Part shown: positions 3,441 through 57,806 of the stretch, piece after piece | How positions within the stretch are numbered: the first letter of the stretch is position 1 | Layout: each line of letters opens with the position of its first letter | Assembly (NCBI GenBank): GCA_017383485.1 | Contig: JAFNXM010000035.1 | Location: 43,904 to 107,903 of the forward strand | Direction of reading: 5' to 3' | DNA length: 64,000 nucleotides | DNA from: Bacteroidaceae bacterium | Lineage (GTDB): Bacteria; Bacteroidota; Bacteroidia; Bacteroidales; Bacteroidaceae | Notes under the pieces: generated by a model | Told to the model about the DNA's origin: nothing | The model's database searches: none | Seen by the model: only the letters and a program-made list of their open reading frames with translations | Translations under genes and position numbers: made by a program

Positions 3441-3530
3441 TGAAAAAGTAAAGACCTCGTTGAAAAAAAGCCTGGGATAATTTTAACGAGGCGTCGCGAA
3501 ATTTTCACAAGGCCTTGACTTTTTTTTTAC
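3441..3530 (+). repeat. Dispersed GACGTCGCG repeat, copy A
   Basis: The core at 3485-3505 reads AACGAGGCGTCGCGAAATTT. On the left is AAAAAAAGCCTGGGATAA, on the right CACAAGGCCTTGACTTTTTT. It lies between the start of the 973-3222 gene and the end of the GH31 gene. A copy with the same left flank is inverted at 11853-11934. See the finding on the repeat family. Confidence 0.8.
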
Positions 3531-3555
3531 CATGAAAGTTTTGGGTTGTTTAGCC

Positions 3556-3686
3556 TCCACGTATCTCAGGTATCTACACGTATATATGTCAGACAAAACG
3601 TTTTTCTCTGTCACGTTTTTTAAGTAGTTCACGTAGATATTGTGAAATTATATCTACAGATTCTCGTGATACACGCGATACGTGGA
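3556..3686. repeat. Nested inverted repeats in the 3223-3859 intergenic stretch
   Basis: The outer arms TCCACGTATC (3556-3565) and GATACGTGGA (3677-3686) are perfect complements. Inside, GTAGATAT (3633-3640) and ATATCTAC (3650-3657) form an 8-bp stem with a 9-nt loop. A minus-strand 64-codon frame crosses this (3589-3783), but it reads through repeats such as PRDPRDT and is not supported as a gene. Together with repeat copy A and the terminator at 3774, this accounts for most of the gene-free stretch. Confidence 0.5.
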
Positions 3687-3773
3687 GAATTATGCCAGCC
3701 AGCGTATCTCGGGGATCACGGGGATACTTATATATATTATATATCAGCAGAAGGAAATTTATGACCAAGAAAA

Positions 3774-3806
3774 AGCGAAGCACTACCGTGGGGGTAATGC
3801 TTCGCT
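3774..3806 (-). terminator. Rho-independent terminator of the GH31 gene
   Basis: The arms 3774-3787 and 3793-3806 form a 14-bp stem (AGCGAAGCA-TACC type, one mismatch) with a 5-nt loop. On the minus strand it is followed by a T-run (complement of 3769-3774). It is 53 bp past the stop of the minus-strand GH31 gene. Confidence 0.8.
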
Positions 3807-3859
3807 CTGAATCTTTATGTTATTTCGTGAGGGGCGTCGTGGTTTGACGCCTCTATGTA

Positions 3860-6800
3860 TCAGAATTTCACGACACCGAGTCCGCTATCAATCAAGAGGC
3901 CATCCTTGGCGGTGAGGTTGAATCGGCCTGCACGTTTAGCCTTGAGTTTGATAACGAAGAGTTCGGGGTTGCCGGCGTCGAGGAGAGTAGCCTGGCCACG
4001 GTTGACGAATGTAGGATAGAGCGCCTTTGTGCCGTCTGAGTGCAAGCGGTCGTTGGTGAGGTTGACCATTTGCTTCATACCTACTGCCTCGATACCCATA
4101 TATTCGAATTCCTGAGTATCGTATGGGAGGGCGAAACTGAGGGCGTTGACTGCTCTGAGGTCCTTACCGCTGACGGTGATGCGTACTTCGTCGCCTGCCT
4201 TGTAGGTCTTAGCACTTGGTGTGAGAACGAGCGTACCAGCTACGACTTCGCTTGATGGACGAGCGCCGCCATCCAATACTGTGGAGACGAGAGAGGCGTC
4301 GTAGGCATCGATCAAGCCGTTGCCATTGACATCGCCGATGCTGACGTAATCGAAATCGCCATCGCCACGACGCAATCCGGTGTAGTTCATATAGGATGTG
4401 AAGTCGCCCTCGTCGATGCGCTTGTCGCGGTTGATATCGCCCTGGAGTATGCTTTCTGTATCTGCCACCTTGAAGATATACATTTCGTGACCCGAACCGA
4501 AGTTACCTACGGCTTCGCTGATAGAAATCTTGATGTAGCGTGCAGTAGGGTTACCATCAAATGCGAAGGTGCTCATAGCGCCAACGCGTTCCCAAGAGAA
4601 GGAGACGGGGGTGCTCCAGGTTTGCTTGTCCGTGCTATAAGAGACTGTACCACGCAGGATGGTGCCGTTGCCGCCGTCCTCGCGGTGATAATAGTCGAGG
4701 CGGTCCAGCTGGTTGACGCTGCGCAAGTCTATCAACATATCGAATGGCACGGCTTCTCCCTTGCCCCACTTGGTGTGCCAACCTGCTTTCATATCAAAGT
4801 CGAAGAGGTGGTCGATGGTTTGACCAGGTTGGTCTTCGCAAGTAACGCTTGCCTTGATGCCCTGAATAGCAAATTCGAGCGGATTGGACAACGTCATTGC
4901 CTTAGCTTCGGCCCATTCAGATGCACCCTGAGCATTGACTGCGCGCACCCTGAAGGTGTATTCGTTTTCGGCCTGGAGGTCTTCGAAATCGAGGGTCAAA
5001 TCGCGGATACCAGAGTAGCACATGCCACCGAATTCCACTTCGTAGAAATCCGCCCCCTCGACCTTTTGCCAAGATGGCGCAAGATTATATGGACCTACGG
5101 CTTCCTCCTTGAACACGACTTGAGGTGCGGCGAGCGTGCCTTGGCTCTTGCGCAATGGGTCTACTGTAGCAAATTGGAAACCTTTGACAGTCACTTCAAC
5201 AGCGTTCTTGGCAACGTCGCACTTGGCCAGGCGTACCCAAAGTTGTGGGTTCTTCTTCACACTAACCTTGGCAAATTCGCTGCCAGGCGTAGCGTAGCGG
5301 TTGAGTTCGGGCGACGCATTATAATAATAGACGTTTTCGCCATTGAGGAATTCTTCTTCAGATTGTACTGGGGCAAGTTTCACCTTCTTGCCACCAACCC
5401 TGGCCTCTACCTTCTTAGGCGCTGCACTGACGTTGATACGGAAGTCCGTCAGTTTGTTGAACTCTACGCCTGCAAACTCGCCTATCATTTGGTCTACGTG
5501 AATGCTCAATTTATTGCCATCAACTCGTGTAGTGACGGCGGTAGATGTAGCATTGCCCGAGAGGTAGTCCTGCGTCTTGCCATCGTCGTCGTATTCGGTG
5601 AAAGTAGTGCCCTGGAGCGCATAGATTTCGTAGACACGATAGTCGGTGCGCCATGCTGAAGGATTGTTGTGCGGCAGTGTCATCGGCAGGATGGCATCTG
5701 CCTTGACAAATACAGGGATTTTCCAGATGGGGCAGTCAAAGTTGTTGAGGATTACACCGCCTTGGTAAATGTCGCCGTTGAAATAGTCTACCCACACTCC
5801 TTCGGGCAAGTAGATGCCGTTGCGGATATCGTTGCCGTCCTTATCCATACTTGTTTCCTTGTAGATAGGTGCCACGAGTAGAGATGGGCCGAACATATAT
5901 TGATATTGCGTCTTGTGGCCCTGGGTGTAGGCGTTGGGATAATCGAGGAACATGGCACGAACGATAGGTTTGCCATCAACGGCTTCACGGGCTACGGAAT
6001 AGGCGTAGGGCATGAGTTCGGTCTTCATCTTCAAATACCAACGGTTGATGCTTGCGGCAGGTTCGCCCAAAGCCTGGGGATACTTGGGATTAGCTCCCCA
6101 GCCATCCATATTAAGCAACATTGGTGTGAAAGTCTTCCACTGATAGTCGCGGATATTGACTGGCACATTCTTGCCGCCGAAGATACCATCCAGGTCGTTG
6201 GTGATATTGGGCTGACCAGAAAGTCCCGAACCGATGAAGGTGGGGATGTGATAGCGGATGTATTCCCAGTCGCCACCCGACTGATCGCCAGTCCAAATGC
6301 CAGCATAGCGCTGAGTGCCGGCCCAACCACAAACGGAAACTATAAAGGGGCGCGCATTTGAACCATAATAGGGCATGATTTGACCAACGTCTGTCACACC
6401 ATTCAAACCGAATGAATAACCTGCGCCAACCCATGCTACGTCGGTCTTCAGCACACGTACACCAGCATCACGCACTTCCTTGACAATATCACGTTGGAGG
6501 AGAGGTTCGACACCTTCTTTGGGATGTAGGTCGCTCTGTGTCCAAAGTCCGATTTCTACCCCCTTGGAATGGGCATAGTCGCCAAATTCTTTCAGGTTTT
6601 GGATATTTTCGTCCAGGCTACTGCCCTGACCATAACCACAGGCATAGCCGTCGTTGGGCAAGAACCAACCGAGGGGCATATCCTGACTTTGGTACCTGTC
6701 GATGGCTGCACGTGCCGAGAATTGATAGGCTGCGGGATCCTCGCCGTTCAGGCTTTCACGCAATCCGCCTTCGATAGGCTTTTGGCTTTCATTGTAGCGC

Positions 6801-7732
6801 TTGCCATCTTCGTAGAGCATAAACCCATTTTCGGCTTCTTGCCAGTAGTCGCGGTTGTAGGCATTGAGGTGTCCCATATAGAAGCCAAACTTAGGCAACA
6901 AAACGGGATTACCCGTCAGCTGATAAAAATCGTTCAAGAGGGGCACTGCACCATCGTTTATCATAAAGAAAACGTCGAGGTAGTTTTCTTTGTGCGAAAG
7001 GAGCACTTTGCCGTCCTCGGTAGCACCAAAGTCATAACGACCTGGGCGGAAAGTATGCCACATCATACCATAACCACCCGTAGACCAATAGAAGGGTGTG
7101 GGAGAGGCTACACCACCGTCAACCCAGTTGTTGGTATTTTCGATCACAATAGCTTTGCCCTTGTGCGAGAAGCGACCATTTTGCACACCGCCGCCGTAGA
7201 AATATTCGTCCTTGCTGGCACGGAGCGAAATAGTGGTGCTTTCTTTGTCAAACTTCAAAGGGTCTGTCCATTCGACGACGGTCTTGCCTGTCTCCAGGTT
7301 CTTCACTGTCATCAAGACCTTTTGGCGATCTATATTCACGAGAATCTTTGGCGTAGAGATTTCAAAGAATCTGTCGCTGGTCTTCACTTCTATACCGCCC
7401 GTAGCACGACGTGCATTGCCCGTCAATATTTGTGCCTCGGGGGTAGCTTTGGGGTCACGCAAGATGCCGCCATTATTATCCTGGAACAGACGGAAAATAT
7501 TGCTACCGTAGAAGTCCAACGTCATCGTGCTACCATCGGCATATTTCAGTTCGACGGTGGTGGGATTGATTTGACGTGCATCGGTCAACTGTACAGGTAT
7601 TTGCACCACAGGGTTGAGACCCATCTGCGCCGAAACGCTGACTGGGACGGCTACCGAAAGACCAACGGCAAGCGGCAAGGCTAAAAGACAGGAAGCAAAA
7701 GGTCCCGTCATCGAAGAAATCCTTTTTTTCAT
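3860..7732 (-). CDS. Secreted GH31 glycosidase, probably alpha-N-acetylgalactosaminidase type, with dockerin and cohesin-like modules
   Basis: 1290 residues. A signal peptide (1-35, ending VSAQ) is followed by the GH31 N-domain and catalytic barrel to about residue 700. The likely nucleophile is Asp431 in VLKTDVAWVGAGYS and the likely acid/base Asp483 in IWTGDQSGGDW, 52 residues apart. After the beta-sandwich domains come an FN3 (about 885-950), an F5/8C (CBM32-like) domain (about 955-1080), a dockerin-like pair of EF loops (GDINRDKRIDEGDF and GDVNGNGLIDAYD, about 1085-1145) and a cohesin-like domain to the end. GH31 enzymes with this architecture and the KTDVAW motif include the alpha-N-acetylgalactosaminidases that act on mucin-type O-glycans. 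The family is firm; the substrate is inferred. It has its own terminator and stands alone. Confidence 0.85.
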   Translation of the reverse strand: MKKRISSMTGPFASCLLALPLAVGLSVAVPVSVSAQMGLNPVVQIPVQLTDARQINPTTVELKYADGSTMTLDFYGSNIFRLFQDNNGGILRDPKATPEAQILTGNARRATGGIEVKTSDRFFEISTPKILVNIDRQKVLMTVKNLETGKTVVEWTDPLKFDKESTTISLRASKDEYFYGGGVQNGRFSHKGKAIVIENTNNWVDGGVASPTPFYWSTGGYGMMWHTFRPGRYDFGATEDGKVLLSHKENYLDVFFMINDGAVPLLNDFYQLTGNPVLLPKFGFYMGHLNAYNRDYWQEAENGFMLYEDGKRYNESQKPIEGGLRESLNGEDPAAYQFSARAAIDRYQSQDMPLGWFLPNDGYACGYGQGSSLDENIQNLKEFGDYAHSKGVEIGLWTQSDLHPKEGVEPLLQRDIVKEVRDAGVRVLKTDVAWVGAGYSFGLNGVTDVGQIMPYYGSNARPFIVSVCGWAGTQRYAGIWTGDQSGGDWEYIRYHIPTFIGSGLSGQPNITNDLDGIFGGKNVPVNIRDYQWKTFTPMLLNMDGWGANPKYPQALGEPAASINRWYLKMKTELMPYAYSVAREAVDGKPIVRAMFLDYPNAYTQGHKTQYQYMFGPSLLVAPIYKETSMDKDGNDIRNGIYLPEGVWVDYFNGDIYQGGVILNNFDCPIWKIPVFVKADAILPMTLPHNNPSAWRTDYRVYEIYALQGTTFTEYDDDGKTQDYLSGNATSTAVTTRVDGNKLSIHVDQMIGEFAGVEFNKLTDFRINVSAAPKKVEARVGGKKVKLAPVQSEEEFLNGENVYYYNASPELNRYATPGSEFAKVSVKKNPQLWVRLAKCDVAKNAVEVTVKGFQFATVDPLRKSQGTLAAPQVVFKEEAVGPYNLAPSWQKVEGADFYEVEFGGMCYSGIRDLTLDFEDLQAENEYTFRVRAVNAQGASEWAEAKAMTLSNPLEFAIQGIKASVTCEDQPGQTIDHLFDFDMKAGWHTKWGKGEAVPFDMLIDLRSVNQLDRLDYYHREDGGNGTILRGTVSYSTDKQTWSTPVSFSWERVGAMSTFAFDGNPTARYIKISISEAVGNFGSGHEMYIFKVADTESILQGDINRDKRIDEGDFTSYMNYTGLRRGDGDFDYVSIGDVNGNGLIDAYDASLVSTVLDGGARPSSEVVAGTLVLTPSAKTYKAGDEVRITVSGKDLRAVNALSFALPYDTQEFEYMGIEAVGMKQMVNLTNDRLHSDGTKALYPTFVNRGQATLLDAGNPELFVIKLKAKRAGRFNLTAKDGLLIDSGLGVVKF

Positions 7733-8119
7733 ATTGGTTTATGTTTTATATTTATTTCTCTATTTAAACAGTAAAAATCGGGGTAAAGTTAGCAAAAAGA
7801 ATAGATATACCTCGATCGAACCAAGGTATTTTGCACTTTATGTAAGGCTTTACCTATACAATCCAACCATTTCACACCAACACATACGACCTCCGTCGCC
7901 AGTCACCAATTGCAAGAGAAGGTACCCAATTCGCTACTTTCATTGCTACTTTTTGTTAATATTTGGAGAAAAAATATGCTATTTCTCGCCTCTTGCTTTT
8001 TTTATTAAAGAAAAGAGCGTATTTTTGCATAGCATAGGTAAATAGGCAATCGAAATACCTATATTCCTGAAATCACAGACTAAAAATTAGACTTATCCGA
8101 TAACATTCAAAATTAGATT
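7733..8119. other. Divergent intergenic region, GH31 gene / rsfS
   Basis: 387 bp between divergent genes. It holds the rsfS promoter (8020-8027) and, on the minus strand near 7785-7795, a TAACTTTAC element that could serve the GH31 gene. No repeats, RNA genes or further frames were recognised. Confidence 0.5.
8020..8027 (+). promoter_or_regulatory. Bacteroidota -7 promoter element for rsfS-ftsH-cdsA
   Basis: TATTTTTG matches TAnnTTTG. A TTGC at 7993-7996 is a weak -33 partner, 23 bp upstream. The expected start of transcription leaves a leader of about 85 nt before rsfS. Confidence 0.55.
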
Positions 8120-8479
8120 ATGAGTACAACAAAAGAAGTAGTAAATACGATCATCGAGGCTATTCAAGAAAAAAAAGGTCATAGCATCGTCGTGGCAGAC
8201 TTGCGCAAAATCATCACAGCACCTTGCGAATATTTCGTCGTGGCTACTGGCAACTCGCCACAGCACGTAGATGCTTTGACTTATTCCGTAGAAGAAATGG
8301 TGCGCAAGACTCATGGCGAAAAACCTGCTGCTATTGCTGGACAGGAAAACGCTATTTGGGAAGCCATGGACTACGGCAATATCATGGTGCACCACCTGTT
8401 GCCCGATGCACGCGAACACTATGACATTGAGCACCTGTGGCAAGATGCACACCTGGAAATCATCCCCGATTTGGACTAA
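8120..8479 (+). CDS. rsfS: Ribosomal silencing factor RsfS
   Basis: 119 residues, full length for the RsfS/YbeB/Iojap family. The family motifs are present: ADLRKI, CEYFVVATGNSPQHVDAL, GENAIWEAMDYG-like (here QENAIWEAMDYG) and the VHHLLPDAREHYDIEHLW segment. RsfS binds ribosomal protein L14 and blocks joining of the subunits when nutrients are short. It is first in the conserved Bacteroidales cluster rsfS-ftsH-cdsA, with 138 bp to ftsH. Confidence 0.93.
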   Translation: MSTTKEVVNTIIEAIQEKKGHSIVVADLRKIITAPCEYFVVATGNSPQHVDALTYSVEEMVRKTHGEKPAAIAGQENAIWEAMDYGNIMVHHLLPDAREHYDIEHLWQDAHLEIIPDLD

Positions 8480-8617
8480 GTAAAAATATCACAGAACATC
8501 ACAAACAATTCACAAACAAAACATTACTTCTCGACATCGCTTTGTGAAAGTTGGCGAAAACAGGCTCACAGCTTCTCACAAAATCGACGAGGATGAAAAA
8601 ACAAAACAAAAAAGAAA

Positions 8618-10723
8618 ATGAGCAACGAAGTTAAGAAAAAAGGAGGGTTCAAGATAAATTGGTTCTTCTTCTTTGTCATCGCAATGCTGTCCTTTATGCT
8701 GTTTCAAGACGGCATCGGCAACAAGAGTTTCGAAAAAGAAGTATCGCTGAGCGAATTTAAGCACCTTGTAGCAGACAGTGTAGGTTCTAAAATCGTAGTT
8801 GAAAAGAATAGCGGTGTAGCCCGTATGGTGGTGCGCCCTCAGTACGTGCGCGAAGTCTTCAAGATGACTATCGAGGAGACGGGCAAAGAGCCTATGGTCA
8901 AAACCATGACCAACAAGGAAAGCAAGATTGAAGAACTGGCTCTGAGCACTGGCACAGACTTCACTTATATTGAGGATGTCAACTATCTCAGCTACTTCAT
9001 GTCGATGATTCTGCCCATCCTGCTGTTGGTTGGTTTATGGTACTTCATCTTCCGTCGTGCTGGCGGTGGTGCTGGCGGTGCTGGCGGCGGCGTGTTTAGC
9101 GTCGGCAAGAGTAAGGCTAAATTGTTTGAAAAGGGCAAAGGCACACAGGTGCTGTTCAAGGACGTCGCTGGTCAGGAGGGAGCCAAGCAAGAGGTGCAAG
9201 AAATTGTAGACTTCCTGAAGAATCCTGCAAAATATACCGAACTCGGTGGTAAGATACCCAAGGGGGCACTGCTCGTAGGCCCTCCGGGAACGGGTAAGAC
9301 GTTGCTGGCAAAGGCCGTTGCAGGCGAAGCGAATGTGCCTTTCTTCTCGTTGTCGGGTTCTGACTTTGTCGAAATGTTTGTCGGCGTCGGTGCAAGCCGT
9401 GTACGTGACCTGTTCCGCCAAGCCAAGGAAAAGGCGCCTGCCATTATCTTTATCGACGAAATCGATGCTATCGGACGTGCTCGTGGCAGCAAGAACTCTT
9501 TCAACTCGAACGACGAACGTGAGAATACACTGAACCAACTGCTGACCGAAATGGACGGATTTGGCAGCAATTCGGGTATTATTATATTAGCAGCGACCAA
9601 CCGCGTCGAGATTCTGGACCAAGCCTTGTTGCGCCCAGGTCGCTTCGACAGACAAATTCACCTCGACCTGCCCGAACTCTCCGAGCGTGTCGCTATCTTC
9701 AAGGTACACTTGGCGCCACTGAAACTGGCTGAAGGTCTCGACATCGAATTCCTGGCACGCCAAACGCCTGGTTTCTCGGGTGCAGATATTGCTAACGTGT
9801 GCAACGAAGCAGCCCTTATCGCCGCACGTCACAATAGCAGCCACGTATCTATTCAGGACTTTCTGGATGCCGTAGACCGCACCGTAGGCGGGTTGGAGAA
9901 AAAGACCAAGGTGATGACACGCGACGAAAAGAAGACTATCGCCCTGCACGAAGCTGGTCACGCAGCTATCTCATGGTTGGTAGAATATGGCAACCCCCTT
10001 GTCAAGATCACCATTATCCCACGTGGTCGTGCCCTTGGTGCAGCATGGTATTTGCCCGAAGAACGTGTCAATTCGACCAAGGAGCAAATCCTGGACAACA
10101 TCTGTTCGCTCCTGGGTGGTCGTGCTGCCGAAGAACTGTTTACAGGCAGCATCTCGACAGGCGCACTGAGCGACCTGGAACGTGCGACCAAGGCGGCGTA
10201 TGCTATGGTGGCATTCTATGGTATGTCGGACAATCTGCAAAACATCTCGTACTTTGACAATCAGGAAAACATCTTCACCAAGCCCTATTCCGACGATACT
10301 GCAAAACTCATCGACAAAGAGGTGAAAGCCATCATTGCCACACAATACGAACGTGCCAAGGCATTGCTGAGCGAAAATGCTGAAAAGCACAATTTGCTGG
10401 CCGAAAAGTTGATGGAGCACGAGGTTGTATTTGCAGGTGATGTCGAGGAAATCTTTGGCAAGCGTCCATGGAAGAGCCGTGCAGACGAACTGCTAGAAGA
10501 GCAGAAACAAGAGGAGGAACGCAACCAGACCCTACCATCTGACGATGCCACCCCTACCAGCGCCGATGATGCTTGCCATCTATCCACTACGCCGATACCA
10601 GCCACTGATACCGAGGCACTGCCTCCTCTGCCTGTCTGCGCGGGTAATGATGCAGCAGGTGCCGACCAGTCAGACCCATCAGCAGATACGGCAGAAAGCA
10701 AAAAGTCCGAAGCGTCTGAATAA
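8618..10723 (+). CDS. ftsH: ATP-dependent zinc metalloprotease FtsH
   Basis: 701 residues. Two membrane segments (about 14-30 and 126-146) flank a periplasmic domain. The AAA module has Walker A GPPGTGKT (221-228), Walker B IIFIDEID (276-283) and the second region of homology with the RPGRFD arginine (about 339-344). The zinc site HEAGH is at 444-448. FtsH degrades misfolded membrane proteins and short-lived regulators at the inner membrane. Family members usually end soon after the protease domain; here about 50 acidic, Pro/Ala/Asp-rich residues follow (about 650-701), probably disordered. cdsA begins 47 bp downstream. Confidence 0.96.
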
Positions 10724-11852: not shown

Positions 11853-11934
11853 CAAAAAAAGGTAAGACCTTGTAAAAATTTCGCGACGCCTCGTTAAAAT
11901 TATCCCAGGCTTTTTTTCAACAAAGTCTAGGCTT
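11853..11934 (-). repeat. Dispersed GACGTCGCG repeat, copy B (inverted)
   Basis: The core complement is at 11875-11895 (AAATTTCGCGACGCCTCGTT). Read on the minus strand, the left flank AAAAAAAGCCTGGGATAATT is the same as in copy A, 8.4 kb away. It sits between the convergent cdsA and TonB-receptor genes. The remainder of 11641-12104 holds two terminators and one extra hairpin and no gene. Confidence 0.8.
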
Positions 11935-12025
11935 ATTTCTCGTACGAATATTTAGGATATTTTATCCATCAGCACACACGTTTAGGGTAAGTAATTTATC
12001 AAGTAGGGGATACCAAATAAAAAAT

Positions 12026-24360: not shown

Positions 24361-24462
24361 AAAAAAGGTCTTAGAAAAAAACCTAAACCTTTTTTCAACG
24401 AGGCGTCGCGAAATTTCAAAAAGGTTAGACTTTTTTTCAACAAGGCCTAACCTTTTTTTCTT
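24361..24462 (+). repeat. Dispersed GACGTCGCG repeat, copy C
   Basis: The core at 24397-24416 is AACGAGGCGTCGCGAAATTT. The arms TAAACCTTTTT before it and AAAAAGGTTAGA after it are nearly complementary, so the core sits in the loop of a hairpin. A second AACAAGGCCTAACCTTTTTT follows. The rest of 24335-24688 shows only a promoter-like TATCTTTG (24624-24631). Confidence 0.8.
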
Positions 24463-31465: not shown

Positions 31466-31572
31466 AGCGAAAAAAGTCAAGACTTTGTGAAAAATTCGCG
31501 ACGGCTCGTTGAAAAAAGTCAAGGGTTTGTTGAAATTATCCAAGGCTTTTTTTGAAAAAGGTCTGATTTCTT
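31466..31572 (-). repeat. Dispersed GACGTCGCG repeat, copy D (inverted)
   Basis: The core complement is at 31490-31510 (AAAAATTCGCGACGGCTCGT), with one base changed and one missing relative to consensus. The flanks are AAAAAAGTCAAGACTTTGTG before it and GAAAAAAGTCAAGGGTTTGT after it. The 566-bp stretch 31247-31812 otherwise holds two promoters and no supported gene. Confidence 0.75.
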
Positions 31573-34174: not shown

Positions 34175-34262
34175 TCCCACCTCCAACTTTCGGATAAGAA
34201 ACTTTGCGACTTCTCGTCAAAACAAGGTCTCATTTATTTTCAAAAAAGAGAAGCAAAAGTCT

Positions 34263-40795: not shown

Positions 40796-40905
40796 TAAAA
40801 AAAATAAGACAAAAGCATAGAAAAATTTCGCGACGTCTCGTTAAAAAAAGGTCTAACCTTTTTGAAATTCCAGAACGTTTTTTTTCAAAAAAGGTTAGAC
40901 TATTT
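40796..40905 (-). repeat. Dispersed GACGTCGCG repeat, copy F (inverted)
   Basis: The core complement is at 40823-40842 (AAATTTCGCGACGTCTCGTT). It is followed by AAAAAAAGGTCTAACCTTTT, itself a short hairpin, and by AAAAAAGGTTAGAC further on. It lies between the convergent lipoprotein and flavin-reductase genes. Confidence 0.8.
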
Positions 40906-40949
40906 TTATAACGAATCCAAATATTTTTTTTATTGTAGCCTTTACTTTT

Positions 40950-45299: not shown

Positions 45300-45385
45300 C
45301 ACAAGCCCTAACCTTTTTCAAAAAAGCCTTAACCTTTTTTTAACGAGACGTCGCGAAATTTTAAAAAGGTTAAGGTTTTTTTGAG
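45300..45385 (+). repeat. Dispersed GACGTCGCG repeat, copy G
   Basis: The core at 45342-45361 is AACGAGACGTCGCGAAATTT. The arms CCTTAACCTTTTT (45327-45339) and AAAAAGGTTAAGG (45363-45375) are perfect 13-bp complements, placing the core in a 23-nt loop. This is the clearest fold of the family. The rest of 45250-45577 holds a promoter and no gene. Confidence 0.85.
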
Positions 45386-50072: not shown

Positions 50073-50999
50073 CTAAATCCAAGTCTTTCGGCGGAATAGC
50101 CAGTAGAAGATGGCGGTGACGCTGAACGACAGTACGATCACCAAGGGGAAGCCCCACCATGTGTCCTCCATACCCGAGATCAAGTTCATACCAAAGATAC
50201 TGGCGATAAGCGTGGGAAACATCAAAATGATCGAGATCGAGGTCATCTGCTTCATGACACCCGACATATTATTATTAATAATGCTGGCGTATGTCTCCAT
50301 CGTCGAGTCGAGGATGTGAGCATAGATATTGGTCGTCTCGCGCGCCTGACTCATCTCCGTATTGACGTCCTCGATCAAATCAGCGTCCAGTTCGTCGACG
50401 GGGAGTTTGAACTTCAGCTTTGCCAACAAGTTTTCGTTGCCACGGATTGAGGTGATAAAGTAAGTCAAGCTATCCTGCAAGCGAGACAAACCGATCAAAT
50501 CCTCATTGTCTATCTTGCGGTCCAGATTGCGCTTAGCCTCGTCTATCAGGATACTGATCTGCTTCAAACGCTTCAGGTACCACACTGCAGAAGACAGGAA
50601 CAAGCGGAACACCAAGTCCACCGAGTCCGTAAAACCTCGGTTGCGCTTTTGCTGATACGACACGAAGTCGATCATCATATTCGTTTCGAAGTTGCACACC
50701 GTCACACAGACCTCCTTGTTCAAGATGATACCCAGCGGGATCGTCGTGTGTGGTGTACGCGAGCGCACCTCTTTCACGTATGGTATACGCAAGATGATGA
50801 GCGACCACCCATCGTCGTAATCATAGCGTGAGCGTTCGTCCTTATCTCGGATGTCGTCCAGGAAGTATTCAGGAATCTTCAGTTCTCCAAGGAGAAACTT
50901 TTCATCATCAGGCGTGGGGCAAGTCACCTGCACCCAGCAATTTGGCTGCCACTCTTCTAAAGTGCGGAGTGTGTTATTGAAATTCCAAAAAGTGCGCAT
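50073..50999 (-). CDS. corA: CorA-family magnesium/divalent cation transporter
   Basis: 308 residues from MRTFWNFNNTLRTLEEW, the usual Bacteroidales start; a frame to 51047 is possible but unlikely. A long cytoplasmic funnel domain is followed by two membrane segments near the C-terminus. The family signature Gly-Met-Asn is in SIFGMNLISGMEDTWWG, and the end is a basic tail (FRRKTWI). It forms a pentameric Mg2+ channel. Confidence 0.92.
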   Translation of the reverse strand: MRTFWNFNNTLRTLEEWQPNCWVQVTCPTPDDEKFLLGELKIPEYFLDDIRDKDERSRYDYDDGWSLIILRIPYVKEVRSRTPHTTIPLGIILNKEVCVTVCNFETNMMIDFVSYQQKRNRGFTDSVDLVFRLFLSSAVWYLKRLKQISILIDEAKRNLDRKIDNEDLIGLSRLQDSLTYFITSIRGNENLLAKLKFKLPVDELDADLIEDVNTEMSQARETTNIYAHILDSTMETYASIINNNMSGVMKQMTSISIILMFPTLIASIFGMNLISGMEDTWWGFPLVIVLSFSVTAIFYWLFRRKTWI

Positions 51000-51251
51000 A
51001 ATTCGAAGTTTTGTCTCTGCGTGAGTTTTCAGCGGAGACCAACGCATTTTTTGGCCACCGCAATTTAGTTACAATTTTCCGTGTAATAGTCGTCCATGAG
51101 GATGAATAATTTTATTTTTCTCTACACCAAAGCACCGCCACAACAGGGCACATTTCACCTTGGCACGGGCAAAGATAATAAAGGGATATAAATAGGCAAA
51201 GCAAATTTGCTTTTTTTTACGTTTATGGAATCCTTTTTTAATAAAATATTA

Positions 51252-51283
51252 AGGGAGCGAAAATCCCAAGACTTTCACTCCCT
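51252..51283 (-). terminator. Terminator of the 51305-51883 lipoprotein gene
   Basis: The arms 51252-51262 and 51273-51283 (AGGGAGCGAAA/TTTCACTCCCT) pair with one G-T. The sequence beyond is A/T-rich. It is 21 bp from the stop. Confidence 0.65.
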
Positions 51284-51304
51284 CGTATATTTTAAGCAAC
51301 CTAA

Positions 51305-51883
51305 TCAATGTTCCCAATTAAGGTTTTCAACATTAAATGTGAATGTGTGCGTTCCCTGATTATAGAACTCTACACTTATTTTCATTGTTTTAGCAGTTTT
51401 CATTCGTTCCACAAGCTTCTTATATCCATTCAAGAAAAGCACATCCATACTATGATCACTTGCTCCATCACAATGCACATTGAACGCCTTGTCGCTATCA
51501 AATCTCACTTTAATAGTTTGTCCGTCGATAATACTTGTATTAAACTGACCTTGGGTGATCTTTATGAAAACGTGCTTACCATATTGGGGATCATTTCTTA
51601 AATACAGAACAAGATTGCTACCACCATTGTAGGGGAAGTCAAAATGCGCCACATCTTCAGAAATCGTATAAGCCAGATAAGAAGTTTCATCTGTCATTTC
51701 ATCCAACGTTTCATTATACATCCAATTAGACAAAGGTTCCTGACTTACCACTGTATCCTCTTCGACAAACATTGAATCCCCAGTTTCAAGATCATTGTTC
51801 CCTGTAGTAGAATTGCCAGCACATGAACTAAAAAATCCAGAACACAAAACTGCAATAGATGCACTTATTAAAAATGTCTTCAT
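51305..51883 (-). CDS. Lipoprotein, unknown function
   Basis: 192 residues from MKTFLISASIAVLCSGFFSS, a lipoprotein signal with the lipobox Cys in FFSSCAG; a frame nine codons longer is less likely. The mature part has acidic N-terminal residues and a beta-rich body (HVFIKITQGQFNTSIIDGQT, MKISVEFYNQGTHTFTFNVE). No family was recognised. A consensus promoter and a terminator frame it. Confidence 0.75.
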   Translation of the reverse strand: MKTFLISASIAVLCSGFFSSCAGNSTTGNNDLETGDSMFVEEDTVVSQEPLSNWMYNETLDEMTDETSYLAYTISEDVAHFDFPYNGGSNLVLYLRNDPQYGKHVFIKITQGQFNTSIIDGQTIKVRFDSDKAFNVHCDGASDHSMDVLFLNGYKKLVERMKTAKTMKISVEFYNQGTHTFTFNVENLNWEH

Positions 51884-51940
51884 ACATTGTACAGAAATAA
51901 GATTACACATACTTGCGCCACTTCAAATACCTGCGCATTG

Positions 51941-51971
51941 CAAAGGTAGAGAAAAATATTTAATCCACAAA
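51941..51971 (-). promoter_or_regulatory. Promoter of the 51305-51883 lipoprotein gene
   Basis: On the minus strand, TTTG (51968-51971), 19 bp, TACCTTTG (51941-51948): consensus. Confidence 0.75.
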
Positions 51972-52122
51972 TTCAGTAGAACTATCTTTCAAAAATTTTC
52001 ATTAAACTGCATAATTATGCAAATTCTCCCCTAAATATGCATTTTTCATCAAGTGCATTTTTAACAAAGTTTATACTTTCAGAGGCGCTGGACCTTGCAA
52101 AAATCGTGCAACAAGTAGAAAA

Positions 52123-52213
52123 AAAAGAAAAAGTCAAGACCTCGTGAAAACTTTCCCAGGGATAATTTCAACAAGCCTAAGGATAATTTTTACAAAGTCT
52201 TGACTTTTTTTCG
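52123..52213 (+). repeat. Decayed copy (H) of the dispersed repeat
   Basis: It shares the arms (AAAAAGTCAAGACCTCGTG, CAAAGTCTTGACTTTTTTT) and the GGGATAATTT block with copies A and B, but the GACGTCGCG core is missing. The 615-bp stretch 51884-52498 otherwise holds two promoters and A/T-rich sequence. Confidence 0.55.
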
Positions 52214-52462
52214 CCCCAAAAAAGGGCAAAAAACAAGGGAAAAGCGACACTCGTCCGCTCTCCCCTATATTCTATTACAAAGATACAACATTTTTCGCCG
52301 AAATCCAAATCGCGTTCACATCCGTTAACACTTGCTTTATGCAACCCGTATGCAAAAATATGCAGACCCTGGCAAGTACCATTTTATCTACACCCCGGCA
52401 GGGATACCGCCCCACCCGCAGCGTCATTTGCCCAGCTTTTTTGACAAAAAGGAGAAATAAAT

Positions 52463-52493
52463 TTTGCTCATCCCCCACCTTTTACTAATTTCG
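52463..52493 (+). promoter_or_regulatory. Promoter immediately before the glycosyltransferase gene
   Basis: TTTG (52463-52466), 19 bp, TAATTTCG (52486-52493, one mismatch). The ATG at 52499 is five bases further on, where transcription should begin, so the mRNA may have no leader. Confidence 0.55.
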
Positions 52494-52498
52494 CAGTT

Positions 52499-53488
52499 AT
52501 GAAATACTCTGTGATTATACCCGTATACAATAGACCCGACGAGGTCGACGAACTGTTGGAGAGTTTGACCCAGCAGAGTTTGAAGGATTTTGAAGTCGTG
52601 GTGGTAGAGGATGGCTCGTCTGTACCCTGCAAAGATGTGGTCGAGAAGTATGCTGACCGCCTGGACGTACATTATTATATGAAGCCCAATTCGGGCCCCG
52701 GACAAAGCCGCAACTATGGCGTGGAGCGGGCTCAGGGCGAATATGTACTGATCCTGGACTCGGACGCCGTGCTGCCCACGGATTATATCCAGGCTGTGGA
52801 GGATGAATTGCAGACTGCGCCGTGTGATGCCTTTGGCGGACCGGACCGTGCGCATGCCTCGTTCACACCAATGCAGAAGGCGATCAACTATGCCATGACC
52901 TCGTTCTTCACCACCGGCGGTATCCGTGGCGGCAAGAAGAAGATGGACAAATTCTATCCCCGCTCGTTCAACATGGGCGTGCGCCGCGAGGTGTACAATG
53001 CTCTGGGCGGCTTCTCGGAAATGCGCTTCGGCGAAGACATCGACTTCTCGACACGTATCTTCAAGGGTGGCTATGCCTGCCGCCTATTCCCCGAGGCATG
53101 GGTATGGCACAAGCGTCGCACGGATTTGAAGAAATTCTTCAAGCAAGTGCACAATTCGGGCATTGCTCGTATCCACTTGACACGACGTCACCCCGGCACG
53201 CTGAAATTGGTACACCTGCTACCCACGGTGTTCACCCTGGGTTGTCTGTTGCTGCTCATCGGCGCTATATTCTGCCTATGGAGTTTATTACCCCTTGGTT
53301 TGTTCTGCTTGATTATTCTAACAGACGCAACGATAGCAGAGCGCAGTCTGGGCGTAGGCCTGCGTGCCGTAGCTGCATCCTTTGTGCAACTGACGGGATA
53401 CGGCACAGGATTCATCCGCGCTTGGTGGAACTGTATGGTGATGAAGCGTGGCGAATTTGAAGCCTTCAAAAAGAATTTTTATAAGTAA
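52499..53488 (+). CDS. Glycosyltransferase family 2
   Basis: 329 residues. MKYSVIIPVYNRPDEVDELL begins the GT-A fold. VVVEDGS and LILDSDAVLP provide the nucleotide-sugar and metal-binding acidic residues (the D-x-D equivalent is DSD). GGFSEMRFGEDIDFSTRIF is the acceptor-side E-D-x-D. Two membrane segments lie near the C-terminus (about 245-285). It transfers a sugar to a lipid or glycan acceptor at the inner membrane; donor and acceptor are unknown. radC follows after 38 bp. Confidence 0.88.
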   Translation: MKYSVIIPVYNRPDEVDELLESLTQQSLKDFEVVVVEDGSSVPCKDVVEKYADRLDVHYYMKPNSGPGQSRNYGVERAQGEYVLILDSDAVLPTDYIQAVEDELQTAPCDAFGGPDRAHASFTPMQKAINYAMTSFFTTGGIRGGKKKMDKFYPRSFNMGVRREVYNALGGFSEMRFGEDIDFSTRIFKGGYACRLFPEAWVWHKRRTDLKKFFKQVHNSGIARIHLTRRHPGTLKLVHLLPTVFTLGCLLLLIGAIFCLWSLLPLGLFCLIILTDATIAERSLGVGLRAVAASFVQLTGYGTGFIRAWWNCMVMKRGEFEAFKKNFYK

Positions 53489-53526
53489 GCTATAACTTTT
53501 TGTAAGTAATATACACCTTATTATAT

Positions 53527-54225
53527 ATGTCCATCGATCAAAAGCCCTTAACGATGACGCAACTCCCCGCCGACGAACGTCCGCGCGAGAAGTTGAGGAA
53601 CCTTGGACCCGAAGCCCTGACGAATGCCGAACTGCTGGCCATCCTGATAGGTTCGGGCACGCCGGGCGAGAGTGTGGTGGGGCTGACACAACGCCTGCTG
53701 GCACACGTCGATGGCAACTTGATCGAACTGGGCAAACTCAGCCTGAAGGAACTGATGACTTTCAAGGGCATCGGAGAAGCAAAGGCTATCACGATCAAAG
53801 CAGCCTGTGAATTGGGCAATCGGCGCGCTATGGAGAAGTCGGCACAGTTCTTCCGAATGACATCATCGGAAAGTGTGGCAGAGTACTTGAAACACCAAAT
53901 GCGCGAACTCCCGCACGAAGAATGCCGTATCCTTGTGCTCAACAATGCCCTGCGCCTGAAGGCCAACGTCCTGGTAAGTAAAGGCGCGGCGGACAAGACT
54001 TTGGTGGACATTCGCACCATTCTCTACGAGCTGATACAGCATCGTGCCGTGCGCTTTATCTTTGCACACAATCACCCAGCTGGTAGCACACAGCCCAGCA
54101 CCCAGGACGACGACATCACTCGTCGCCTGAAAGCTGCCGCCGAGGCTATCCAAATTCCCCTGGTAGACCACATTATTATCGCCGGAGATACCTACTATAG
54201 TTACGCCGACGAGGGCCGACTATAA
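53527..54225 (+). CDS. radC: RadC-family (JAB/MPN) protein
   Basis: 232 residues. An N-terminal helix-hairpin-helix region (LPADERPREKLRNLGPEALT, LMTFKGIGEAKAITIKAA) is followed by the MPN domain with the metal motif RFIFAHNHPAGSTQPSTQDD. The family was once linked to DNA repair; its function remains uncertain. Next is the DUF59 gene after 34 bp. Confidence 0.92.
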   Translation: MSIDQKPLTMTQLPADERPREKLRNLGPEALTNAELLAILIGSGTPGESVVGLTQRLLAHVDGNLIELGKLSLKELMTFKGIGEAKAITIKAACELGNRRAMEKSAQFFRMTSSESVAEYLKHQMRELPHEECRILVLNNALRLKANVLVSKGAADKTLVDIRTILYELIQHRAVRFIFAHNHPAGSTQPSTQDDDITRRLKAAAEAIQIPLVDHIIIAGDTYYSYADEGRL

Positions 54226-54259
54226 GTATCGGTTATCACATAACAAACACAAAACACCT

Positions 54260-54580
54260 ATGACCCCAGAAGAACGACTGAAAATAGAAGAACGTACCAT
54301 CGAGGTGCTCAAGACCGTCTACGACCCCGAAATCCCTGTAGACATCTACAACCTTGGGCTGATCTATCGTATAGAATTGATGGACGATGCTACACTCGAA
54401 GTAGACATGACACTGACTGCGCCAAACTGTCCCGCCGCCGATTTCATCATGGAAGACGTGCGCTTGAAAATAGCCGGCATCGAGGGCGTGGCAGATGCCA
54501 AGGTCAACCTCGTGTTCGAACCCGAGTGGGACAAAGATATGATGAGCGACGAAGCCAAGTTGGAACTGGGCTTCATGTAG
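54260..54580 (+). CDS. DUF59 / MIP18-type iron-sulfur assembly protein
   Basis: 106 residues. The MIP18 fold is shown by VLKTVYDPEIPVDIYNLGLI and the conserved Cys segment TLTAPNCPAADFIMEDV. Relatives (SufT, PaaD) help mature Fe-S proteins. No suf genes are in the window. It is 22 bp before lpxH on the same strand. Confidence 0.9.
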   Translation: MTPEERLKIEERTIEVLKTVYDPEIPVDIYNLGLIYRIELMDDATLEVDMTLTAPNCPAADFIMEDVRLKIAGIEGVADAKVNLVFEPEWDKDMMSDEAKLELGFM

Positions 54581-54602
54581 CGCACCGTAAACGAAAAATA
54601 CT

Positions 54603-55370
54603 ATGAAGAAGAACATATATTTCCTGTCGGATGCACACTTGGGTAGCCTGGCTATCCCGCACAGCAGGATGCAGGAACGCCGTGTGACCAACTTTTTGGA
54701 CAGCATCAAGCACAAAGCCGCCGCCGTCTACCTGCTGGGCGACATCTTCGACTTTTGGCACGAATACAAGACCGTCGTGCCCAAAGGATATACCCGATTG
54801 TTGGGAAAAATCAGCGAACTGACAGATATGGGCGTCGAGGTGCATTATTTCACCGGCAACCACGATCTGTGGATGAACGACTATTTGGAAACAGAGTGCG
54901 GCGTGGTGCTTCATCCACGTAGCTCAGTCGTCGAACTCTACGACAACGTTTTCTACCTAGCACATGGCGACGGCCTGGGATCTACCGACCGCGGATTTAA
55001 GTTTCTGCGCGCCGTATTTCACAATCGTATTTGTCAAAAACTCTTTGCTTCCATTCATCCGCGCTGGGGCATGACATTCGGTTTGGAGTGGGCAAAACGC
55101 AGCCGACTCAAACGAAAAGATGGCAAGGAACCACCCTATATGGGCGAGGATAAGGAAGAACTCATCATCTTCGCCAAAGATTATCTGAAAACCCACCCTG
55201 AAATCAATTTCTTCGTATTCGGCCATCGACATATCGAACTGGATTTAATGCTGGCCAAGACCACGCGCCTCGTCATCCTGGGCGATTGGATCACACAGTT
55301 CACCTACGCTGTGTACGACGGCGAACATTTATTCATGGAAGACTTTATCGAAGGAGAAACTCAACCCTGA
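54603..55370 (+). CDS. lpxH: UDP-2,3-diacylglucosamine diphosphatase LpxH
   Basis: 255 residues, calcineurin-like phosphoesterase. The metal-binding motifs are SDAHLGS, LLGDIFDFWHE, TGNHDLWM, LAHGDGLG and FGHRHIELD. It splits UDP-2,3-diacylglucosamine to lipid X in lipid A synthesis, on the inner face of the membrane. It is followed by a hairpin (55377-55411). Confidence 0.92.
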   Translation: MKKNIYFLSDAHLGSLAIPHSRMQERRVTNFLDSIKHKAAAVYLLGDIFDFWHEYKTVVPKGYTRLLGKISELTDMGVEVHYFTGNHDLWMNDYLETECGVVLHPRSSVVELYDNVFYLAHGDGLGSTDRGFKFLRAVFHNRICQKLFASIHPRWGMTFGLEWAKRSRLKRKDGKEPPYMGEDKEELIIFAKDYLKTHPEINFFVFGHRHIELDLMLAKTTRLVILGDWITQFTYAVYDGEHLFMEDFIEGETQP

Positions 55371-55376
55371 TACATC

Positions 55377-55411
55377 TATCCCTTGCTCATAATTCAAAAG
55401 GGCAAGGGATA
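55377..55411 (+). terminator. Hairpin after lpxH
   Basis: A perfect 10-bp stem (TATCCCTTGC, arms 55377-55386 and 55402-55411) with a 15-nt loop. It is not followed by a long T-run, so termination is uncertain. Confidence 0.5.
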
Positions 55412-55450
55412 TACCTATATATATAATATATACGTAATAGAACAGTAACT

Positions 55451-56356
55451 ATGGAAACATTTCTGTCAGCACGACATATCACCAAACAATACGCGCATCA
55501 CACCGCACTTTCGGACGTGAGCATTGAGGTACCCCGTGGCAAAATCTTCGGACTCCTGGGACCAAATGGCGCAGGCAAAACGACGCTGATACGTATCATC
55601 AATCGCATCACTGCGCCGGACTGTGGCGAGATCCTGTTTGATGGTCGCCCCTTCACGGCGAATGATGTCGCACAAATCGGCTATTTGCCCGAAGAGCGTG
55701 GACTCTACAAGAAAATGAAAGTAGGCGAACAAGCCATATACCTGGCACAATTGAAAGGACTCAGCGCCAAGGAGGCACGCAGCCGTTTGATTGAGTGGTT
55801 CAACCGTTTCGAAATCATGCCATGGTGGGACAAGAAGCTGGAAGAACTTTCCAAAGGGATGCAGCAGAAGGTACAATTTATCATTACCGTTTTGCACGAG
55901 CCACCTTTGCTTATCTTCGACGAACCTTTCTCAGGTTTCGACCCTGTCAATGCCGAACTATTGAAGCAGGAAATCCTGCGTTTGCGCGACAAAGGGCACA
56001 CTGTGATTTTCTCTACCCACAATATGAGTTCGGTGGAAGAAGTGTGCGACGAAATCGCCTTGATTAATCAGTCAAAAGTCGTACTGAGCGGCAATGTGCA
56101 CGACGTGAAGCGCCAATTCCGCACCGACAGATTCGAACTAACCTGTACCGAGAAACTCCCCGATTGGAGCGATATTTACAGCATCGCCGAGCATAAAGAA
56201 ATAGCCGACACACACCATTATATATTAAACAAGAAAGCGCCAGCTACCAACTCAGAATTTATCGCACACCTTGCTCAGCAGACAGAGGTGCGTGCTTTCT
56301 GCGAACAAATGCCTTCGATGCACGACATCTTCCTTAAGGTAGTCAATGCGAAGTAA
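55451..56356 (+). CDS. ABC-2 transporter ATP-binding protein
   Basis: 301 residues. Walker A GPNGAGKTT (about 38-46), signature LSKGMQQKVQ, Walker B LLIFDEPFSGFDPV and switch His STHNMSS. The C-terminal ~80 residues are the extra domain seen in NatA/DrrA-type ATPases. With the permease gene 24 bp downstream it forms an exporter; the substrate is unknown. Confidence 0.9.
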   Translation: METFLSARHITKQYAHHTALSDVSIEVPRGKIFGLLGPNGAGKTTLIRIINRITAPDCGEILFDGRPFTANDVAQIGYLPEERGLYKKMKVGEQAIYLAQLKGLSAKEARSRLIEWFNRFEIMPWWDKKLEELSKGMQQKVQFIITVLHEPPLLIFDEPFSGFDPVNAELLKQEILRLRDKGHTVIFSTHNMSSVEEVCDEIALINQSKVVLSGNVHDVKRQFRTDRFELTCTEKLPDWSDIYSIAEHKEIADTHHYILNKKAPATNSEFIAHLAQQTEVRAFCEQMPSMHDIFLKVVNAK

Positions 56357-56379
56357 ATCTTTTTTTGAAATCCAAAGCC

Positions 56380-57684
56380 ATGAATAAAATATTAATCATA
56401 GTGCGTCGCGAATTTATGACGCGTGTGGCCAAGCGGTCGTTCATCTTGCTCACCATCTTGATGCCTTTTATCTTTGCCGCCTTGATCTTTTTGCCAATAT
56501 GGTTGTCCTCGGTCGAGGGGGATGAAGTGGGCACTGTGATGCTCGTTGACAAAACTGGACGATACGGCGCCTCGTTACAAGGCAATCCATCCTACAATTT
56601 TGTGCCTGTAGCAGAAAACAAAGACGAGTTTTATTCAGAAGAAAGCGACGTTGCGGCGGTGCTCTGCATCAACGGCGAATTACACAAAGATCCCACTGCT
56701 GTCGCCCTATATTCGTCGCAAGAGATACCAGCCGACTTGTTGACTTTCACTACCGCCGCCTTGAACGAACAAGTGCGCAAGGATAAGCTACAATCGCACA
56801 ACATTCCCGGCCTGGAGCACATCATAAAGGATGTAGAGAGCACCTTCTCCATCCCAACAATCAAGAGAGATGCAGCAGGCGAGGAGTCGGCGTCAAGTAC
56901 CGACGTGGCGATGCTGACAGGTTACTTGTTCACCCTGCTGATATACATATTTGTGATAGCTTACGGCGGCATGGTGATGCAGAGCGTGATTGAGGAGAAA
57001 ACAGGTCGCATCGTCGAACTAATGGTTTCGAGCGTCAAGCCATTCCAACTGATGATGGGCAAGATCATCGGCGTCGCCTTGGTCGGCATCGTGCAGTTGG
57101 CGATTTGGGGTATGATGTTGGCTGCTATTATCTTTGCTGCGCAGCTGCTATTTGGCGTCGATGTCTCAGCAAGTACTACTCCGTCGATGGCAGGCGGCGC
57201 AATGGTGCCCCCAGCCGAAAGCATGAGTGGAGGCAATGAAATATTAAGCGCTATCATGGGCTTGCCCTTCCTCGAAATCGCAATCATGTTCATCCTCTAC
57301 TTCATCGGCGGCTACCTGCTCTACGCGTCCTTCTTCGCTGCCGTTGGTGCCAGCATCAATTCTCAGGAGGATTCATCTCAATTCATGACTCCCGTCATTC
57401 TGATCATACTCTTCGGCTTCTACGCCGCTATGTTTAGTATGGAGAACACTAATGGTCCGTTAGCTTTCTGGACTTCAATTTTCCCACTGACTTCGCCTAT
57501 TGTGATGATGATCAGAATACCTTTTGGCGTACCCCTTTGGCAGGAATTGTTGTCCTTGTTCTTGCTCTTCGGCACAGCACTTCTGTTTGTCTATATCGGA
57601 GCAAAGATCTACCGCGTCGGCATTTTGATGTACGGCAAGAAGCCTTCGATGCGCGAGATACTGAAGTGGGTGAGGTATAAGTAA
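56380..57684 (+). CDS. ABC-2 transporter permease (NatB-like)
   Basis: 434 residues from MNKILIIVRREFMTRVAKRSF; a start five codons upstream is possible. A first membrane segment (about 20-45), a large extracytoplasmic domain (about 45-175) and five further segments (from about 180) make an ABC-2 permease like NatB. EEKTGRIVELMVSSVKPFQLMMGKIIG is typical. It partners the ATPase just upstream. Repeat copy I begins 25 bp after the stop. Confidence 0.88.
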   Translation: MNKILIIVRREFMTRVAKRSFILLTILMPFIFAALIFLPIWLSSVEGDEVGTVMLVDKTGRYGASLQGNPSYNFVPVAENKDEFYSEESDVAAVLCINGELHKDPTAVALYSSQEIPADLLTFTTAALNEQVRKDKLQSHNIPGLEHIIKDVESTFSIPTIKRDAAGEESASSTDVAMLTGYLFTLLIYIFVIAYGGMVMQSVIEEKTGRIVELMVSSVKPFQLMMGKIIGVALVGIVQLAIWGMMLAAIIFAAQLLFGVDVSASTTPSMAGGAMVPPAESMSGGNEILSAIMGLPFLEIAIMFILYFIGGYLLYASFFAAVGASINSQEDSSQFMTPVILIILFGFYAAMFSMENTNGPLAFWTSIFPLTSPIVMMIRIPFGVPLWQELLSLFLLFGTALLFVYIGAKIYRVGILMYGKKPSMREILKWVRYK

Positions 57685-57708
57685 TGTGATAATACGTCTG
57701 TTTTACAC

Positions 57709-57806
57709 CCCGAAAAAAAGCCTAGACCTTTTTTCAACGAGACGTCGCGAAATTTAAAAAAGGTTAGACCTTTTTTTCACAAGGTATTGACTTTTTTTTC
57801 GCAAGG
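57709..57806 (+). repeat. Dispersed GACGTCGCG repeat, copy I
   Basis: The core at 57736-57755 is AACGAGACGTCGCGAAATTT. The arms CCTTTTTT before it and AAAAAAGG after it pair, putting the core in the loop. It is followed by TCACAAGGTATTGACTTTTT. It lies between two co-oriented genes. Confidence 0.82.

Follow-up and report, generated by a model that had tools for sequence, protein, structure and literature searches.

Tandem repeats whose units keep a constant size while their sequence varies have been described in Bacillus and other bacteria by Subirana and Messeguer (2021; PMC8161180). These mostly non-coding repeats have units of 20-21 nucleotides (nt); according to the accessible part of that paper, the authors remarked that this length equals two helical turns and proposed a nucleoid protein or a small RNA. 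Here, we examine short arrays of 21-bp units in a stretch of 64,000 nucleotides (the window) from a Bacteroidaceae bacterium (assembly GCA_017383485.1, contig JAFNXM010000035.1, positions 43,904 to 107,903), in which a first-pass annotation had noticed a dispersed, near-palindromic core. In the genome containing the window (G000), short intergenic arrays of 21-bp units lie at strongly even intervals along the part of the chromosome examined. Another species, G080 of the same genus, has arrays with units of 21 or 22 bp and several unrelated sequences, and these arrays stay at least 5 kb apart. The kind of repeat is already known from Bacillus (PMC8161180, accessible part); what is new here is the even spacing, with the dense mosaic arrays and the lengths of 21 and 22 as further differences.

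As far as the accessible text of PMC8161180 goes, the likeness to the 20-21 nt class lies in the non-coding position, the several families of one length per genome, the species-specific sequences and the presence of a short conserved piece. A fixed length combined with unrelated, species-specific sequences was found here too, although a length of 22 is just outside the published 20-21. The arrays are mostly non-coding (108 of 118 in G000) with two in-frame exceptions, and about eight families of one length occur in G080. The differences are the bacterial group (G001, the sister species of G000, is titled Prevotellaceae), the two lengths of 21 and 22, and arrays that are short, mosaic, dense and evenly spaced; spacing is not mentioned in the part of PMC8161180 that was seen.

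Other bacterial repeats share single features with these arrays. BrickBuilt of Porphyromonas gingivalis, also in the Bacteroidota, consists of tandem 23-bp units at many intergenic loci of a species and its relative, and is confined to P. gingivalis and P. gulae (PMC4596501, accessible part). It has a leader and a tail with IS5-like terminal inverted repeats and occupies 19 loci with up to 22.8 repeats (same source), whereas the listed arrays here lack such segments and number over 100. Repetitive extragenic palindromes (REP) are imperfect palindromes whose head is a conserved tetranucleotide. REP and the bacterial interspersed mosaic elements (BIME) built from them also exceed 100 copies and are composed of regularly spaced units (PMC2817692, in part); in Escherichia coli, BIME-2 binds gyrase, and the gyrase motif there spans about 130 bp with a GC modulation of 10.75 bp (PMC6379681, in part). 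The strong GC modulation of the G000 arrays, at 20-21 bp, is about twice that value. The arrays differ from REP and BIME in having no linked REP-associated tyrosine transposase (RAYT) in G000 (64% complete) or G001 (74% complete), in their 21-bp register, and in the sharing of one period by unrelated sequences. Pneumococcal BOX elements are likewise modular with a variable number of middle units, comparable to the one to four cores found here. The modules of BOX, however, differ in length and do not share one register, and BOX elements are not known to be evenly spaced.

Arrays of 21-bp units

The G000 assembly comprises 1.68 Mb in 39 contigs. A survey of 861 kb found 118 arrays, and a refined set of 110 leaves out eight weak matches. 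The core was taken as 20 bp with up to three mismatches in the window and as the exact 16-base AACGAGNCGTCGCGAA genome-wide.

The first-pass annotation pictured a conserved core set within variable arms. The core is indeed conserved, being the most conserved unit of the short arrays, but the arms are not a separate part: they are further units in the same register. When 21-mers are cut outward from the core, core and arms alike resolve into 21-bp units in a single register, with an A-rich start, a variable middle and a T-rich end. Within G000 intergenic DNA, lag 21 has 84 exact 7-mer matches per 10 kb, whereas lags 20 and 22 have about 6. The genome-wide count proposed in that annotation gave 137 exact cores (62 on the plus strand and 75 on the minus strand), while the reversed pattern gave 0. 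Among 112 elements the core is present once in 72, twice in 27, three times in 10 and four times in 3, and its orientation is uniform within the array in 95 of 96 cases.

Spacing along the chromosome

The 101 within-contig gaps between arrays of the refined G000 set range from 3450 to 18257 bp, with a median of 6413 bp and a coefficient of variation (CV) of 0.415. The density of arrays in G000 is one per 7.3 kb. The 101 of 110 arrays that could be assigned to intergenic regions have a CV of 0.458. In four controls that drew intergenic regions at random, two of which were length-matched, the CV was 0.77-0.84 (0/1000 in each control). Short gaps are absent: none is below 2.5 kb, where the four random choices predict 15-19. 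The orientation of neighbouring arrays has no effect on the distance, with medians of 6413 bp for 49 gaps between arrays of the same orientation and 6284 bp for 36 between inverted ones.

Exact cores extend this picture, with the proviso that arrays with an altered core or none are invisible to them. Among the 100 of 137 G000 places listed, 18 of 18 gaps on contigs that had been fetched partly or not at all measure at least 5.07 kb. The sister species, with all 52 of its places listed, has 12 of 12 gaps of at least 5.8 kb.

A minimum distance is also seen in G080. Its 260-kb sample holds 21 arrays with a smallest gap of 5053 bp (1/5000 in permutation), and of 20 neighbours, 18 come from different families, as labelled by eye and verified through shared 9-mers. 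The two array-rich parts of the sample have CVs of 0.50 (409/5000) and 0.41 (83/5000). Among the small samples of 3-8 arrays each, G069 supports even spacing (39/3000). Evenly spaced tandem repeats were not met in the titles and abstract openings of the literature searched, though an earlier report of such spacing is possible.

Placement relative to genes

Of the 118 G000 arrays, 106 contain a core. Tandem gene gaps hold 59 of the arrays, divergent gaps 26 and convergent gaps 21; a further 2 are at sequence edges and 10 inside called open reading frames (ORFs). Thus, 108 of them lie outside called ORFs, although the noncoding share is 13.5%, which bears out the intergenic preference reported from the window. 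Among 322 gene gaps measuring 100 bp or more, an array is present in 104. The contexts match the intergenic background (p 0.25). Cores run in the same direction as the gene in 24 cases and in the opposite direction in 30, which shows no relation between the two.

Eight of the ten array-bearing ORFs (306-606 bp) are probably spurious. The other two are real genes whose arrays are in frame and encode 7-residue repeats. Judging from translations read by eye, the array within C4:8901-10230 would lie in a PrmC-like linker and that within C36:95187-97188 in a sulfatase-like membrane protein. A general mutational bias towards 21-bp duplications was considered and rejected: coding repeats of period 21 number 7 in the genus and 7 in unrelated samples. 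Since coding repeats show no special peak at this period, the intergenic arrays need another cause.

Two groups of arrays share long flanks, the first at L045:11437, L045:19433, L046:6106 and L048:3831, and the second at L043:17906, L050:16366, L052:5563 and L055:7003. These may have been copied as larger duplications.

Comparison with the sister species

The sister species G001 is close to G000 (CdsA is 92% identical; the next best in the genus is 66%) and has 52 exact cores. A count across relatives, also proposed in the first-pass annotation, returned 0 both for 35 more genomes of the genus and for 24 from the order, so that within the genus two of the 37 genomes have the core. The arm unit AAAAAGGTTAGACCTTTTTT, at up to two mismatches, matches 150 times in G000, 136 times in G001 and once in G003, while the remaining 55 of the 58 genus genomes have no match; it is thus present in 3 of 58, one of these by a single weak match. 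In a collection-wide scan, among the matches listed (80 of at least 104 stretches), those outside G001 are single matches scattered over various taxa and were treated as chance.

The places of the arrays are largely common to both species. Under a loose criterion, 95 conserved gene gaps comprise 18 with an array in both, 77 with an array in neither and 0 with an array in one only; the 18 include one terminator look-alike and three gaps in which the match of one genome is weak. Alignment of the DNA with the refined sets gives 19 shared places (7 inside alignments, 12 in gaps). Three places are found in G000 only and one in G001 only, and three of these four have a weak match in the other genome; in addition, one terminator look-alike had been counted in G001. 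The sole clear absence concerns Array 4 of the window, which falls among the broken adjacencies in the gene-order comparison: G001 lacks this array and about 400 bp of neighbouring DNA, and shows no clean empty site there. Recent spread, one of the first-pass suggestions, is mostly not seen after the split of the two species.

The sequences themselves have changed. Unit number differs in whole 21-bp steps at C4:84265 and C27:130260, the core is missing in one of the two genomes in the comparison of the arrays at C36:54368 and C4:37127, and at window positions 45321-45381 the G001 core has the opposite orientation and altered arms. In 18 compared gaps, array letters align at a median of 0.645 and flanks at 0.605, with 0.67 in array-free gaps (n=39). 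Since the places are mostly shared while the letters of the arrays align like their flanks, most places are old and their letters turn over.

One match, at G000 C4:119686-119706 and on G001 contig C49 (~25365), is kept in both species and is probably a rho-independent terminator that resembles the core by chance. Several G001 contigs (C1, C9, C11, C28 and others) start within a few hundred bases of an array; assemblies may break at arrays.

Arrays in the rest of the genus

Arrays of other sequences also occur elsewhere in the genus. The program TRF found 82 intergenic repeats of period 20-23 in 787 kb of G000 and 37 in 796 kb of 23 other species of the genus, sampled at 17-100 kb each. The comparison sets yielded 3 in 321 kb from 15 genomes of other families of the order (p 0.0015 against the genus) and 3 in 541 kb of unrelated bacteria (p 5.5e-6). 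At least one such array occurs in 15 of the 23 other species. Samples range from 44 to 64% GC, and the array sequences are unrelated between species, with the exception of close pairs, for example G020/G008 and G015/G017.

The unit length is narrowly confined. In the G080 sample, lag 21 accounts for nine runs, lag 22 for twelve and lag 24 for one, with none at the other lags from 14 to 31. Lags 21-22 account for 8 of 12 runs in G009 and are the sole lags in G008 (2), G069 (5) and G074 (3). Nine groups of arrays were distinguished by eye in G080, of which C and G share 9-mers, leaving about eight families; families A and B alternate within the genome. The arrays may be a site for a DNA-binding protein, another suggestion of the first-pass annotation, but several unrelated sequences apparently play the same role in G080. 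In a comparison of array positions between G000 and G080, the eight conserved pairs all lack an array and so carry no information on shared places.

Two further repeats were noted in these genomes. The 12-mer GAGACCTTTGCA occurs in 4 of 76 intergenic regions of G080 (160 kb). It is a BrickBuilt/ISNme1 terminal repeat (PMC4596501, accessible part). In G081 (C16:140001-240000), palindrome parts around GGGGGCGACGCGTCGCCCCC were seen repeatedly, in as many as 13 of the 52 intergenic regions.

Alternative explanations

A mobile element was among the first-pass suggestions, either REP-like with a RAYT or similar to a miniature inverted-repeat transposable element (MITE). The search for a RAYT does not support the former: the lone Y1_Tnp match of G000, a RAYT-like gene at C36:4087-4425 (L166), is not among array cores and is flanked by its own, different REP-like palindromes of the GCCCTGAAAGGGC and GGCCTTTCAGGCC types. 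No core with up to five mismatches was found in the 10 kb fetched around it, and no Y1_Tnp was found in G001 (74% complete). The MITE, which would carry terminal inverted repeats and a target-site duplication, has little support either, given that DDE_Tnp_1, the only other transposase family searched, has no match in G000 and one fragment in G001, that inspection by eye found no constant ends in the listed arrays, and that 19 places are shared with G001. A more elaborate possibility is that a target-immune transposon spread the arrays in trans, with immunity barring insertion within several kb, and that this spread has largely stopped. Immunity of the Mu or Tn7 type would give a hard minimum distance, such as the 3.45 kb seen in G000. 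The high copy number in both orientations, the restriction to two sister species and the one clear difference in presence, at Array 4 of the window, would also fit. The same near-absence of DDE_Tnp_1 and the same shared places, however, speak against it, as does the exclusion in G080, which acts across unrelated families of different unit length; we regard it as unlikely. Distinctly unlikely, in our view, are neutral minisatellites that arise by tandem duplications of fixed length, and whose close copies are lost because recombination between them deletes the genes in between. Unit number does shift by whole 21-bp steps, and an array is present at 7 of the 14 gene adjacencies that are broken between G000 and G001, compared with 18 (or 17) of the 95 that are conserved (Fisher p 0.017 (0.013)); the arrays may thus recombine, though assembly errors at repeats would look alike. 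Recombination between neighbours as the source of the spacing is nevertheless unsupported: same-orientation neighbours, which are prone to deletion, are no further apart than inverted ones, and the 18 of 20 G080 neighbours from different families could not recombine.

Two alternatives assign the arrays a function of another kind. One is that of bidirectional terminators or RNA hairpins, terminators having been suggested in the first-pass annotation: arm units such as AAAAAGGTTAGACCTTTTTT would fold into short hairpins with a T stretch behind them and stop transcripts or protect RNA 3' ends. This arm unit, with its 150 matches, is a near-perfect palindrome with a T tract, and 13 of 45 units from other species are more self-complementary than shuffles (p<=0.05), against 3/23, 1/13, 1/11 and 1/22 in control sets. 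Palindromic units are therefore enriched but not universal, and cannot be considered a general rule. Nor do the arms behave as covarying hairpin partners, as seemed to be the case in single arrays, since their pairing (11.29 of 21) equals that of permuted arms (11.30), with a weakly raised tail (16/2000, both genomes together). Divergent gaps are not avoided (26 of 106 arrays, compared with 55 of 313 gaps), gene contexts follow the background, core orientation is independent of gene direction, and termination leaves the spacing unexplained, all of which makes this account very unlikely. The arrays could also be uptake or recombination signals that label self DNA for import, as in Haemophilus and Neisseria, and be even for that reason. 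A species-specific sequence in high copy number fits such signals, and even spacing is on record for them: PMC1939737 (in part) cites Karlin et al. for it, but itself finds uptake sequences less even than compaction would lead one to expect. Signals of this kind appear highly improbable here in view of the several unrelated families in G080, as uptake sequences are known as one short motif per species.

Arrays of the window

The arrays of the window are collected in Table 1. The core search gave seven matches, six of them exact, where 100 dinucleotide-preserving shuffles lead one to expect 0. The seven copies of the first-pass annotation, three of them inverted, were thereby recovered; each of the seven has large ORFs on both sides, and the gene contexts include convergent (11876), divergent (31491) and tandem ones, as had been described. 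Array 7 has no core and had been missed, as had the even spacing. The degenerate core at 34199..34218, which is outside the refined set, is probably a relic array. Rfam at gathering scores reports two tRNAs only in the window.

Table 1. Arrays of 21-bp units in the window (positions within the 64,000-nucleotide stretch)
Feature	Position	Strand	Description
Array 1	3443..3524	+	21-bp units around core 3485-3504
Array 2	11855..11937	-	21-bp units around core 11876-11895; near-identical array at the aligned place in G001
Array 3	24376..24457	+	21-bp units around core 24397-24416; near-identical array in G001
Array 4	31471..31530	-	Core 31491-31510 with 2 mismatches; divergent context
Array 5	40823..40906	-	Core 40823-40842 plus further units
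Array 6	45321..45381	+	Core 45342-45361 with complementary arms on either side
Array 7	52128..52209	.	Core-less array
Array 8	57715..57796	+	Core 57736-57755 plus flanking units
Degenerate core	34199..34218	-	4 mismatches; one adjoining unit

A second repeat comes after four arrays, in the region of window position 31491, at L044 ~10236, at L050 ~6503 and at L048 ~18562. It consists of a hairpin-like stretch and, on the opposite strand, a TATCTTTG-like sequence that is presumably a promoter.

A possible role in chromosome arrangement

The spacing suggests a role in arranging the chromosome, in preference to a selfish element or a stop for transcription. It is tempting to propose that each array is a mark or an anchor for a chromosomal segment of several kb, and that the two-turn repetition matters while the letters do not; we consider this a real possibility that falls short of being probable, and the mechanism is putative. 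The repetition every two helical turns would be read by a DNA-binding protein that wraps DNA or polymerises along it. A nucleoid protein or gyrase would be a candidate, the latter because of the E. coli gyrase motif, with its length of about 130 bp and its modulation, and the binding of gyrase to BIME-2 (PMC6379681, accessible part). Arrays would arise and change as units are duplicated locally, lost or exchanged. Each segment would keep one array, since a segment without an array would be disfavoured and a second array nearby would be useless. The distance kept between unrelated families speaks most against recombination and against a target immunity that is specific to sequence.

Several observations weigh against this proposal or against the regularity on which it is built. 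When the eight weak matches left out of the refined set are restored, five gaps fall below 3450 bp: three, of 86-119 bp, lie beside another array, one is due to a terminator look-alike and one to a degenerate array inside a gene. A scan that relied on lag alone found 11-17 arrays on each of three G000 contigs, with CVs (0.69, 1.12 and 0.73) that are not significantly below random; the motif-based set was preferred because the lag-only scan misses mosaic arrays, finding 12 on contig C4 against 23 in that set. In G001, the CV of 33 gaps scored 25, 85, 137 and 223 of 1000 in the controls, of which only the loosest was passed, and two gaps are below 2 kb, the shorter one ending at a terminator look-alike. 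The overall CV of G080 is not low (0.92 vs 0.89), because of two gaps of 45 kb. In keeping with the proposal, one of these array-free stretches (C6 ~355-399 kb, L294-L296) carries integrase and defence genes: it holds a phage integrase, PcfJ, DndB, AAA ATPases and a type III restriction helicase. In the other, ten genes were scanned, metabolic ones among them, and there are weak lag signals at 154.6 and 166.5 kb. The small samples of G009 (454/3000, with gaps from 1.9 kb) and G074 (1786/3000), of 3-8 arrays each, are not significant. No intergenic array of 20-23 bp was found in the 17-100 kb sampled from 8 of the 23 other species, although G024 has an array at another locus and G061 a lag-21 peak. 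Finally, a GC modulation common to all arrays, which would favour wrapping, was not found outside G000, as the units of other species do not exceed shuffles (z 0.8).

A bolder extension, which we consider doubtful, is that the whole genus uses such arrays as a ruler, with any short array of 21-22 bp period able to serve, one per ~6-8 kb, and with geometry alone defining the marks. Families would then come and go and alternate in one genome, as A and B do in G080, while unit length and minimum spacing would stay. If this is the case, the arrays would be a chromosomal site that is free of sequence and is read through its own repetition every two turns.

Bacterial repeats of constant length and free sequence have so far been described without a known function (PMC8161180, as far as its accessible part goes). 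Even spacing, together with the distance kept between unrelated families, gives the arrays a strong signature of position, one that suggests chromosome architecture. If the proposed role is true, these arrays would be a bacterial site that is defined by repetition and distance and not by sequence, and this would explain why such repeats are species-specific in sequence and yet fixed in size.

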